Assembly: GCF_021390935.1 (NCBI RefSeq)
Contig: NZ_JAJPUI010000012.1
Location: 1-64,000, forward strand
Origin: Streptomyces sp. CC228A
GTDB lineage: Bacteria > Actinomycetota > Actinomycetes > Streptomycetales > Streptomycetaceae
Length of the DNA: 64,000 bases
Direction of reading: 5' to 3'
The notes beneath the pieces are model-generated. The model was not told the origin of the DNA, did no database searches, and worked only from the letters and a program-made list of their open reading frames with translations. The translations under genes were made by a program, and so were the position numbers. Below are positions 10,872-16,128 of this stretch, in pieces; within the stretch, counting starts at the first letter, position 1; the number at the start of each line of letters is the position of its first letter.

Positions 10872-11624
10872 CTACAGCTCGTACACCGCGCCCGGTCTGG
10901 CCAGCTCGGCGGGGCCGGAGTAGACGGCGCGGGCGTCCGCCAGGTTCCGCTCGCCGTCCGTCCACGGCGGGATGTGCGTGAGCACCAGCCGCTTCGCCCC
11001 GGCGCGCGCCGCGTGCAGACCGGCCTCCCGGCCGTTGAGGTGCAGCTCCGGGATGTCCTCCTTGCCGTGCGTGAAGGACGCCTCGCACAGGAAAAGGTCG
11101 CTGTCCGCCGCCAGGGTGTCGAGGGCGTCGCACACCCCGGTGTCGCCGGAGTACGTCAGGACCTTGCCGCCGTGCTCGATGCGGATGCCGTACGCCTCGA
11201 CGGGGTGGCAGACCCGTTCCGTGCGCACCGTGAAGGGGCCGAGGTCGAAGGGGCCGGACTTCAGGGTGTGGAAGTCGAAGACCTCGCTCATCGACGTGGC
11301 GGACGGGGTGTCCCCGTACGCCGTGGTCAGCCGCTGCTCGGCGCCCTCGGGGGCGTACACGGGCATCGCCTCGCAGCGGCCGCCCTCGTGCCGGTAGTAG
11401 CGGGCCACGAAGTACGCGCACATGTCGATGCAGTGGTCGGCGTGCAGATGGCTCAGGAAGATCGCGTCGAGGTCGTAGAGACCGCAGTGGCGCTGCAGCT
11501 CGCCGAGGGCGCCGTTGCCCAGGTCGAGGAGCAGCCGGAAGCCGTCGGCCTCCACGAGGTAGCTCGAGCAGGCCGAGTCCGCGGACGGGAACGACCCGGA
11601 GCAGCCGACGACGGTGAGCTTCAT
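10872..11624 (-). CDS. MBL-fold metallohydrolase (RNase Z/phosphodiesterase-like)
   Basis: A 250-residue metallo-beta-lactamase fold protein. It shows SHLHADHCID (HxHxDH, two zinc sites), then CHPVEAYGIRIEH, TYSGDTGVC (bridging aspartate), FLCEASF and a C-terminal THIPPW histidine. The layout with SYLVEADGFRLLLDLGNGALGELQ resembles RNase Z/ElaC-type phosphodiesterases, but the long exosite arm is not obvious, so the substrate is uncertain. Start is ATG 11624. It is convergent with nagE2 and divergent from the MazF-like gene. Confidence 0.85.
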   Translation of the reverse strand: MKLTVVGCSGSFPSADSACSSYLVEADGFRLLLDLGNGALGELQRHCGLYDLDAIFLSHLHADHCIDMCAYFVARYYRHEGGRCEAMPVYAPEGAEQRLTTAYGDTPSATSMSEVFDFHTLKSGPFDLGPFTVRTERVCHPVEAYGIRIEHGGKVLTYSGDTGVCDALDTLAADSDLFLCEASFTHGKEDIPELHLNGREAGLHAARAGAKRLVLTHIPPWTDGERNLADARAVYSGPAELARPGAVYEL

Positions 11625-12604: not shown

Positions 12605-13954
<1,350 letters not shown>

Positions 13955-14071
13955 TCAGGCGGCGGCGCCGTGCTGACACATGGCGCTGGCGAGGCGGCAC
14001 AGGTCGACGTGCAGCCGCGCCACGAGCAGGACGGTGCCCGGCGTCTGTTCGCTCACGTCGAGGGAAACCAT
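13955..14071 (-). CDS. cysteine-containing leader peptide upstream of cysO-cysM
   Basis: A 38-codon frame beginning MVSLDVSEQTPGTVLLVARLHV (start ATG 14071). Its core, HVDLCRLASAMC, matches the DLCR-x2-SA-x-C pattern of short leader peptides before sulfur-assimilation genes in actinobacteria. TACGAT lies 6 nt before the ATG with no Shine-Dalgarno, which fits leaderless expression, as reported for cysteine-responsive attenuator peptides in mycobacteria. It ends 121 nt before cysO. Attenuation by cysteinyl-tRNA supply is inferred. Too short for routine gene calling. Confidence 0.72.
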   Translation of the reverse strand: MVSLDVSEQTPGTVLLVARLHVDLCRLASAMCQHGAAA

Positions 14072-14181
14072 GCGCTCATCGTAACGATTCCCGGTCGCCC
14101 CGCCAGAGTGTGATCTCGCATCGCGGACGATGCCCGCTCGCCATGCGGACGCCTGTCCGGCGGGGCGCAGGTCAGGTCGGG

Positions 14182-14604
14182 TCAGTACGCCTCGACGACC
14201 GCGACCTCCTCCTCGGCGATCTCGCCGTCCACGATGCGGAACGAGCGGAACTGGAAGGGGCCGGCGCCGTCGGTGTCCGCCGTGGACACCAGCACGTAGT
14301 GGGCGCCGGGCTCGTTCGCGTACGAGACGTCGGTGCGGGACGGGTACGCCTCGGTCGCCGTGTGCGAGTGGTAGATGACCACCGGCTCCTCGTCGCGGTC
14401 GTCCATCTCGCGGTACAGCTTGAGCAGGTCCCCGGAGTCGAACTCGTAGAACGTGGGCGAGCGGGCGGCGTTGAGCATCGGGACGAAGCGCTCGGGGCGG
14501 TCGGTGCCGGCCGGGCCCGCGACCACGCCGCAGGCCTCGTCGGGGTGGTCCGCGCGGGCGTGCGCGACGATCTGGTCGTACAGGGCCCGTGTGATGGTCA
14601 GCAT
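14182..14604 (-). CDS. mec: JAMM metalloprotease Mec (CysO-cysteine hydrolase)
   Basis: A 140-residue Mov34/MPN/JAB1 protein. The zinc motif HSHTATEAYPSRTD (HxH-x7-S-x2-D) is complete, and the catalytic glutamate is in DEACGVV. In mycobacteria Mec cleaves cysteine from the CysO-Cys adduct after CysM transfers the carrier. Its position upstream of cysO-cysM on the same strand, with the leader peptide between, supports that role here. Start ATG 14604. Confidence 0.92.
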   Translation of the reverse strand: MLTITRALYDQIVAHARADHPDEACGVVAGPAGTDRPERFVPMLNAARSPTFYEFDSGDLLKLYREMDDRDEEPVVIYHSHTATEAYPSRTDVSYANEPGAHYVLVSTADTDGAGPFQFRSFRIVDGEIAEEEVAVVEAY

Positions 14605-14625
14605 GGGGTTCAGGATAAGCAGACC

Positions 14626-14660
14626 GGCCCGCCCGTACCGAAGGGTGGTACGGGCGGGCC
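14626..14660 (-). terminator. hairpin after the amino-acid permease gene
   Basis: GGCCCGCCCGTACC (14626-14639) pairs with its complement at 14647-14660 across 7 nt, placed 35 bp past the permease stop and 22 bp before the mec start. Confidence 0.72.
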
Positions 14661-14694
14661 CGCATGCTGGACACAGCCGGTGGTACGGGGCCGT

Positions 14695-16128
14695 TCAGCG
14701 CTTGCGGAACGCCGCGTTCTCGGGGCTGCGGGCCCTCAGCGCCAGGTACGCGGCGCCGAGCAGGGCGCCCCACACGGGGGCGCAGTAGAGGGACACCCTG
14801 GACTGGGCGTCCACGGCCATGAGCGCCAGCACGAGACCGAGGAAGCCGAGCGCGAACCAGCTGGTCCAGGGAGCGCCGGGGGCCCGGAACGAGGACCGCG
14901 GCAGCTCGCCGCGGTCGGCGCGGGCGCGGTAGCGGAGGTGGCAGACGAGGATCATGATCCACGCCCACATGCCGGACACGGTGGCGAAGGAGACGACCTT
15001 CTCGAAGGCGTCACCGGGCCACCGGTAGTTGATCCACACGCCGACGAGCATCAGGGCCGCGGAGAAGGTGGTGCCGACCAGCGGGGTGCCGGACCGGGTG
15101 AGGCGGGTGAAGACCTTCGGGCCCTGCCCGTTGAGCGCGAGGTCGCGCAGCATGCGGCCGGTGGAGTACATGCCGGAGTTGCAGGACGACAGGGCGGCGG
15201 TGAGCACCACGAAGTTCACGAGGGCGGCGCCGACGCCGAGGCCCATCTTCTCGAAGGCGGCGACGAACGGGGAGACGCCCGGCTGGAACTCGCTCCACGG
15301 CACCACGGAGAGGATCATCACGAGCGCGCCGACGTAGAAGACGGCGATGCGCCACGGCACGGTGTTGATGGCCTTGGGCAGCGTGGTCTCGGGGTCCTTG
15401 GACTCGCCCGCGGTGACGCCGACCAGCTCCACGGCGAGGAAGGCGAACATCACGATCTGCAGGGTCATGAGGGTGCCGCCGACGCCCTGCGGGAAGAAGC
15501 CGCCGTCGGCCCACAGGTGGGTGACGGACGCGGTGTCCCCGGCGTCGGAGAAGCCGAGGGTGAGGATGCCGGCGCAGATCAGGATCATGCCGATGATGGC
15601 GGTGACCTTGACCATCGAGAACCAGAACTCCAGCTCGCCGAAGAGCTTCACGGAGATCAGGTTCGCCGCGTAGAGGACGACGGTGAAGGCGAGCGCGGAC
15701 AGCCACTGGGGGATGTCCCACCAGTACGTCATGTAGGTCGCGGCCGCGGTCACCTCGGTGATGCCGGTGACGACCCAGAAGAGCCAGTACGTCCAGCCGG
15801 TCGCGAAGCCCGCGAAGGGGCCGACGAACTCGCGGGCGTACTCGGAGAACGAGCCGGACACCGGGCGGTACATGAGGAGCTCGCCCAGGGCCCGCATGAT
15901 GAAGAAGATGACGACGCCGGCCAGGGCGTAGGCCAGGACCAGGCTCGGTCCCGCCTTGGAGATGGCGGTGCCCGCGCCGAGGAAGAGGCCGGTGCCGATG
16001 GCGCCGCCGATGGCGATCATCTGGATCTGGCGGGCGCCCAGTCCCCGCTGGTAGCCCTCGCCTCCGCTGTCGCCCTCCGCGGTGCCCGCGGTGCCGTGCT
16101 GCTGTGTCTCGACCTTCGCTGAGGTCAT
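14695..16128 (-). CDS. APC-family amino-acid permease
   Basis: A 477-residue transporter with 12 predicted helices of the amino acid transporter (AAT) subfamily. RGLGARQIQMIAIGGAIGTGLFLGAG is the substrate-binding unwound helix 1 motif, followed by GELLMYRPVSGSFSEYAREFVG and VELVGVTAGESKDPETTLPKAIN. It resembles the proline/aromatic/D-serine (CycA-type) group, so the substrate cannot be fixed. ATG 16128 is preferred to the upstream frame start because the MTSAKVE leader is polar and short. Monocistronic, with its own terminator. Confidence 0.88.
   Translation of the reverse strand: MTSAKVETQQHGTAGTAEGDSGGEGYQRGLGARQIQMIAIGGAIGTGLFLGAGTAISKAGPSLVLAYALAGVVIFFIMRALGELLMYRPVSGSFSEYAREFVGPFAGFATGWTYWLFWVVTGITEVTAAATYMTYWWDIPQWLSALAFTVVLYAANLISVKLFGELEFWFSMVKVTAIIGMILICAGILTLGFSDAGDTASVTHLWADGGFFPQGVGGTLMTLQIVMFAFLAVELVGVTAGESKDPETTLPKAINTVPWRIAVFYVGALVMILSVVPWSEFQPGVSPFVAAFEKMGLGVGAALVNFVVLTAALSSCNSGMYSTGRMLRDLALNGQGPKVFTRLTRSGTPLVGTTFSAALMLVGVWINYRWPGDAFEKVVSFATVSGMWAWIMILVCHLRYRARADRGELPRSSFRAPGAPWTSWFALGFLGLVLALMAVDAQSRVSLYCAPVWGALLGAAYLALRARSPENAAFRKR

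Follow-up and report, generated by a model that had tools for sequence, protein, structure and literature searches.

The cysO locus of Streptomyces sp. CC228A raises the question of what controls cysO and cysM, and what is contributed by the short open reading frame (ORF) ahead of them. The window is the whole stretch of DNA that was analysed, with a length of 64,000 nucleotides. On its minus strand the gene order was mec, leader ORF, cysO and cysM (Table 1). A preliminary description had placed a 38-codon ORF between mec and cysO, with TACGAT exactly 6 nt 5' of its ATG and no Shine-Dalgarno sequence. The ORF and the hexamer were both present as described, and no Shine-Dalgarno-like stretch was seen by eye before the ATG. 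A longer open frame (14968..13955, 337 aa) was rejected because it overlaps mec and because conservation starts at the promoter and ATG 14071.

The reading favoured here, with a probability of about 0.55, is that of a cysteine-sensing leader which would be fed by two overlapping promoters, one housekeeping and one SigR-dependent, and in which a ribosome stall would raise cysO-cysM expression. Control by a stress sigma factor and by an amino-acid leader would then be combined within about 40 bp, with neither bypassing the other. The SigR promoter over the start codon, the probable NdgR site and the conservation of the peptide beyond its Cys codons had been missed in the preliminary description.

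Table 1. Coordinates of the features at the cysO locus and of the sister leaders.
Feature	Coordinates	Strand	Remarks
Leader peptide ORF	13955..14071	-	38 codons + TGA; translation MVSLDVSEQTPGTVLLVARLHVDLCRLASAMCQHGAAA
cysO, sulfur carrier, ThiS/MoaD family	13555..13833	-	Pfam PF02597, 63.7 bits
cysM, cysteine synthase family	12605..13555	-	TIGR01136, 367.7 bits, above cut-off; also PF00291
mec-like JAB-domain hydrolase, upstream neighbour of leader	14182..14604	-	Pfam PF14464, 110.7 bits
C-rich untranslated stretch, leader to cysO	13834..13954	-	cysO Shine-Dalgarno AGGAG at 13846..13842
Conserved leader motif A-R-L-H-V-D-L-C-R-L-A-S-A-M-C	13976..14020	-	Cys codons TGC 13999..13997 and TGT 13978..13976
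SigR -35 box GGAAT	14087..14091	-	At -20: GGAAT in 156/165 leaders, GGGAT in 8, absent in 1
Housekeeping-type -10 TACGAT, within SigR spacer	14078..14083	-	Start point expected at ATG
SigR -10 box GTT (leader codon 2)	14066..14068	-	Spacer 18
Codon 6 GTG, proposed second leaderless start	14054..14056	-	At SigR start point inferred from ECF geometry
Probable NdgR (IclR-type) site	14114..14128	-	-57..-43 from leader ATG; 13/15 published motif positions, opposite strand
Sister leader L108	G000:C1:175889-175945	-	NF042934 above cut-off
Sister leader L109	G000:C1:900048-900101	-	NF042934 above cut-off
Sister leader L110	G000:C19:107630-107680	-	NF042934 above cut-off
Sister leader L111	G000:C25:56407-56457	+	NF042934 24 bits, below cut-off

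The leader ORF and its family

The leader ORF is almost certainly a leader peptide of a known family. It scored 37.7 bits against the NCBIfam profile NF042934 "putative leader peptide" (cut-off 27) over the whole 19-position profile, which had no matches above cut-off in 14 control genomes. Against the Cys-rich leader families Ms4527A and Ms5788A the scores were 18 and 16.5 bits, below the cut-off of 45, and nothing in Pfam matched the leader. The likeness to NF042934 (cis_reg_atten) consists of a score above the curated cut-off and of the position of a short ORF 5' of sulfur-type genes. The genes 3' of the four sister leaders (L108 to L111), named from their translations, were a flavin reductase, a sulfite/nitrite-reductase-like gene, a thiosulfate-sulfurtransferase-like gene and a symporter. 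The earlier assignment to the leaderless leaders of actinobacterial sulfur genes is supported by the profile score, by the tie to cysO-cysM across genus and family and by the sister leaders. Eight near-alike loci from several genomes (L383, L384, L391-L393 and L398-L400) formed a sub-type of the family, VRLWRRVHMDLxRYAGCVCRxSC.

Upstream regions of cysO were gathered from 226 loci, and 221 were unique after five duplicates were dropped. A leader was parsed in 165 of the 221; these loci are related, and the counts of leaders and boxes given here are not independent events. By taxon the leader was parsed in 120/130 regions of the genus, 34/35 of other genera of the family and 11/14 of the rest of the order. 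The pattern search found none in 42 cysO regions from other orders. CysO was present in 101/101 genomes of the genus. The genus set comprised 100 of the 101, as cysO lies 58 nt from a contig end in G050, and a leader at the spacing TANNNT-N6-ATG was present in 94 of these 100 regions. The family search used 35 of 36 other-genus genomes, the remaining one (G294) having a weak paralogue only. The order search covered 60 genomes and the class search 118 (107 with a match), and upstream regions were taken from part of these only. One region, L186, was counted as leader-less because it was unparsed, the motif being visible in it by eye. In two loci of another order (L201 and L202) a frame resembling the leader, with LVARLHVDLLRVASARC or LVARLHVDLLRVNSARC as its end, was present several hundred nt 5' of cysO. 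UGU stood at the corresponding position in both, an exact SigR box was lacking, and the search pattern missed these frames.

Within the leader frame pN/pS was 0.33 for the 16-codon block VARLHVDLCRLxSAIC and 0.18 for the core. The two other frames gave 0.98/2.84 and 1.16/4.19, and leader-frame codons before the block gave about 1. One of the 165 loci (L100) was anchored at the wrong Asp in this calculation, as also in the stall model and hairpin count below. The motif residues R, H, D, L, R, S and A were conserved despite synonymous change. As the low ratio is specific to the leader frame and set against about 1 before the block, the C-terminal end is selected at the peptide level, whereas the N-terminal part is filler.

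Amino-acid-level selection is also what would be seen if the peptide acted in trans as a small protein, for example by binding a metal or thiol. Such a role is very improbable. The leader lay 46 to 208 nt 5' of cysO in all 165 loci, and sister leaders with the same motif precede other sulfur-type genes. Leader length ranged from 31 to 58 aa, with 13 of the first and last codons free to vary in length.

Promoters and proposed start codons of the leader

The promoter consensus of SigR, the thiol-stress sigma factor, is GGAAT-N18-GTT (PMC2375139 and PMC9205884, in the passages on the promoter). An exact copy was present in the window at 14091..14066. It spans the start of the leader, with the housekeeping-type -10 in its spacer and its own -10 triplet on codon 2. 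A SigR promoter is very likely built into the leader start. Exact SigR boxes were present in 156 of the 165 leaders, with a spacer of 18 in 133 and of 19 in 23; eight leaders had the GGGAT type and one (L227) had none. The housekeeping-type -10 was TACGAT in 128 leaders and another TANNNT in 37. The arrangement TANNNT-N6-ATG was part of the leader search pattern and is present in 165/165 by construction.

Fixed blocks were found in all of the first 94 same-genus leaders (94/94): GGAAT at -20..-16, TA at -12/-11, AT at -8/-7, ATGGTT at +1..+6 and GA.GTG at +13..+18. Positions between these blocks varied freely. Where codon 2 was Val it was GTT in 133/133 leaders, compared with 5/377 Val codons elsewhere (157 leaders). 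Genome-wide (6.86 Mb, both strands) there were 45 exact GGAAT-N18-GTT sites and nine for the reversed pattern. From the 45 sites the chance of a SigR box at exactly that place was estimated at about 1 in 100,000 or less. A search pattern that combined codon 6 with both promoters matched at least 118 stretches in the genome collection. Among the 118 matches listed cysO lay within 450 nt in 113 and at 491 nt in one, and four were cut by the locus end.

SigR and RsrA are both encoded in the genome (358.9 and 104.4 bits, respectively, each exceeding its cut-off). A GGAAT-N18-GTT site is also present some 320 nt 5' of sigR itself. Self-activation of sigR is known and a box upstream of sigR fits this expectation.

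Among the family members compared, the SigR box was seen at cysO leaders only. Twenty-eight new loci were inspected, of which 20 were parsed; the other eight were read for the codon alone and were excluded from the SigR comparison. SigR boxes were present in 10/10 cysO leaders and 0/10 other family leaders, and none was seen by eye in the four sister leaders of the genome (0/4). The NF042934 entry is silent on promoters, and the overlap with SigR sets the cysO leaders apart from these other members.

SigR-type boxes were also found without a leader. Outside the order 21 of the 42 cysO regions had such a box 64 to 132 nt 5' of cysO and no parsed leader (0.1/42 in shuffles). Within the order 12 of 14 leader-less regions retained the box, and in some of these ACG or ACC replaced the ATG. 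As the box persists in leader-less regions within and outside the order, SigR control looks older, with the leader added later and sometimes lost.

The preliminary description proposed in effect a plain codon-counting attenuator. The leader would then serve the housekeeping mRNA only, and the SigR-like box and codon 6 would be neutral hitchhikers. NF042934 is known as a family of leader peptides, and at least one motif Cys codon was present in every leader. Hitchhiking does not fit a box held at a fixed place in 164/165 leaders including the GGGAT version, the constant GTT among codon-2 Val codons or the boxes in other orders. Codon counting alone also asks for less than the conserved H, D, L and R, and the retention of R, H, D, L, R, S and A through synonymous change is not demanded by it. 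This explanation is therefore regarded as quite improbable, and a leader fed by both promoters is preferred.

From the housekeeping-type promoter the mRNA would start at ATG 14071 and the leader would be translated with no Shine-Dalgarno sequence. Transcription from ECF promoters usually begins about 9 to 11 nt after the -10 triplet. By this geometry the SigR start is expected at +15..+17, on codon 6. Codon 6 was GTG in 152 of the 165 leaders, ATG in 12 from several genera and GCC in one, and the GCC belonged to L227, the sole leader without a SigR-like box. Val codons elsewhere in 157 leaders were GTC (220), GTG (148), GTT (5) and GTA (4). Codon 6 does not seem to be kept as a Val residue, because GTC would then be expected to outnumber GTG. 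Since the Val/Met exchange keeps a start codon, and GTG is used over GTC, codon 6 is read as the point where translation of the SigR mRNA begins, a further leaderless start, and this reading is probable. The 5' end of the SigR mRNA would lie on the codon-6 GTG (14056) or a few nt from it, within the leader, and this codon would serve as an in-frame leaderless start. Both mRNAs would then encode the same C-terminal motif and pass one cysteine checkpoint.

The same geometry places the SigR start downstream of the ATG, and the SigR mRNA might instead bypass the leader. Expression under stress would then be blind to cysteine, the housekeeping mRNA would be attenuated and the codon-6 GTG would be only the SigR start region. 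The boxes retained in leader-less loci of the order imply that SigR works without a leader. Four regions that have lost the motif (L043, L099, L145 and L150) likewise had GTG as codon 6, and the reason for keeping it may differ from reading the motif. A start region kept for its bases or its residue would not account for the change from Val to Met, which preserves a start codon in several genera, and codon 6 and the SigR box were lost together in L227. Bypass is accordingly held to be unlikely, and translation of the motif from both mRNAs is retained as the preferred reading.

Cysteine codons and the route to cysO

At least one of the two motif Cys was present in 165/165 leaders. The codon two after Asp was TGC in 151, TGT in two and GGC in 12. 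The codon nine after Asp was TGT in 158, TGA in four, TAG in two and GGG in one, and was never TGC. All 158 leaders with Cys at this place thus used UGU, as did the sister leaders of the genome (4/4) and family members in other genomes (18/18). UGU is the rare Cys codon of these genomes, and the remaining Cys codons of the leaders were mostly UGC. The Cys codons of six neighbouring genes in the window were TGC (16/16). In the pattern DLCRxxSAxC, given earlier for this leader, the Cys were not universal across the 165 leaders: that of DLC was present in 153 (Gly in 12) and that nine after Asp was replaced in seven. UGU was replaced by a stop in six leaders (L031, L127, L131, L225, L227 and L232), whose peptides end SAM, SAA or SAL; these six count against the favoured reading.

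The leader likely senses cysteine. A shortage of charged tRNA-Cys would make ribosomes stall on the Cys codons, above all on the UGU nine positions past Asp, and the motif RxHxDLxR of the nascent chain would assist the stall from within the exit tunnel. If this is so, the position-fixed UGU offers a simple handle on cysteine sensing by a large actinobacterial leader family.

A rare codon that is held at a constant distance from a conserved peptide, and that gives way to a stop in six of the seven exceptions, is the pattern expected of an A-site arrest site. The leader may therefore be an arrest peptide: its nascent motif would halt the ribosome when UGU or a stop codon occupies the A site, and the trigger may be cysteine, another sulfur metabolite or the redox state. 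TnaC is the comparison for arrest with a stop codon in the A site. The constancy of UGU contrasts with the other motif Cys, which was TGC in 151/153, and selection falls on the motif with the rest of the leader neutral (pN/pS about 1). The motif might act at the mRNA level as well, and UGU may be kept either for slow wobble decoding or for the mRNA. Arrest is a serious candidate, held at somewhat below even chances, and it is not exclusive with a cysteine leader under two promoters. A fuller scheme comes close to even odds without reaching them. It has two in-frame leaderless starts 15 nt apart, each with its own promoter, so that either sigma factor would lead to the same arrest-peptide-like checkpoint ending on the fixed UGU. 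In the Streptomyces order the leader would have been added to a SigR promoter that was there before it, and it could be shed to leave SigR alone.

The proposal that the CysO pathway is under attenuation stood as far as the tie of the leader to cysO-cysM is concerned. The usual devices (terminator, Shine-Dalgarno switch, fold stronger than shuffles) were not found. No terminator-like sites were predicted in 13500..14300, and TTTTT was present in two of the 165 spacers. In a stall model which was thermodynamic only and without pseudoknots, Shine-Dalgarno accessibility over 165 loci was 0.223 when free, 0.212 and 0.225 when stalled at either Cys and 0.230 when stalled at the stop. The RNA fold of the window locus was no stronger than shuffles (z = +1.05). 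Hairpins of at least 6 bp near a Cys codon were found in 70/165 loci compared with 60.4 (50-69) in shuffles. The four Rfam matches near the locus up to E = 1 were far below gathering scores, were of eukaryotic types and were taken as chance.

Two candidate structures were rejected. Pairing of the DLC codons to ACAGG, which would sequester the Shine-Dalgarno sequence, was set aside as the stall model was flat and ACAGGA was present in 6 of 11 leader-less regions of the genus and family. A conserved-fold candidate, GCCGCGGC, recurred in one clade of 22 aligned loci, and hairpins over the 165 loci were near chance.

C exceeded G in the leader-cysO spacer of 165/165 loci (C 47.6%, G 28.4%), compared with 23/43 for the stretch before cysO in leader-less regions. 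The stall would raise cysO-cysM expression, and a block of Rho on the C-rich spacer is the first guess, given this difference and the proposal of Seliverstov for mycobacterial cys leaders.

NdgR, published expression and related leaders

The 15-bp NdgR motif was matched at 12/15 or more positions within -60..-22 in 128 of 164 leader loci, compared with 6/164 when shuffled (one locus was too short). In the window NdgR probably represses from -57..-43. A ChIP-seq peak of S. coelicolor NdgR at SCO2910-2912 is given in the relevant passages of PMC4340878. According to these passages S. coelicolor cysM shows hardly any expression in the absence of diamide. Diamide induces it whether or not ndgR is present, NdgR represses it under diamide, and the authors suggest further regulators (PMC4340878). 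The SigR box would account for the effect of diamide on cysM. It would also be a candidate answer to a question left by PMC4340878, namely which factor other than NdgR is behind the diamide induction of S. coelicolor cysM. Under oxidative stress SCO2912, SCO2911 and SCO2910 were up 3.43-, 5.24- and 8.46-fold in the data excerpted from PMC4991794. The SenR site predicted there for SCO2912 matches the end of mec (PMC4991794). SCO2912 may be a longer annotated version of the cysO leader; S. coelicolor lies outside the locus set.

Canestrari reportedly described mycobacterial polycysteine leaderless small ORFs as attenuators in 2020, namely Ms5788A and Ms4527A. Leaderless Cys-containing small ORFs precede cysteine genes in mycobacteria in the pertinent section of PMC4633059. 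The cysO leader is like them in being leaderless, in containing Cys and in preceding cysteine genes, and its profile resemblance to them is weak. It differs in lacking a Cys run (2/38 codons) and in that no translation-attenuation fold was found for it with the stall model over 165 loci. Seliverstov (2005) reported short ORFs with Cys codons near the stop and no conserved terminator, for which Rho was proposed, before cys and cbs genes of Mycobacterium, P. acnes and B. longum (PMC1262725, passages on cys leaders). These passages name no Streptomyces cys leader, though two Streptomyces genomes were in the study. RNA-seq of S. lividans TK24 revealed leaderless leader peptides before amino-acid genes, and of the eight leaders listed in the relevant part of PMC8079986 none is for cysteine.

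Control of these genes by a sigma factor has a parallel in M. tuberculosis, where SigH directly controls mec-cysO-cysM (PMC4803200, in the part concerned with this operon). The SigH site is assigned there to mec, whereas the Streptomyces SigR site lies between mec and cysO, within the leader ORF. In open-licence PMC text no description of a SigR promoter inside a leader peptide was found.

Two further observations concern the surrounding genes. The genome has a second CysO-like gene, 55% identical, at G000:C19:15232-15507 (minus strand), and a second CysO match was also present in most genomes of the genus. The ORF after cysM (11624..10872, minus strand) has by eye an HLHADH stretch like that of metallo-beta-lactamase-fold hydrolases.
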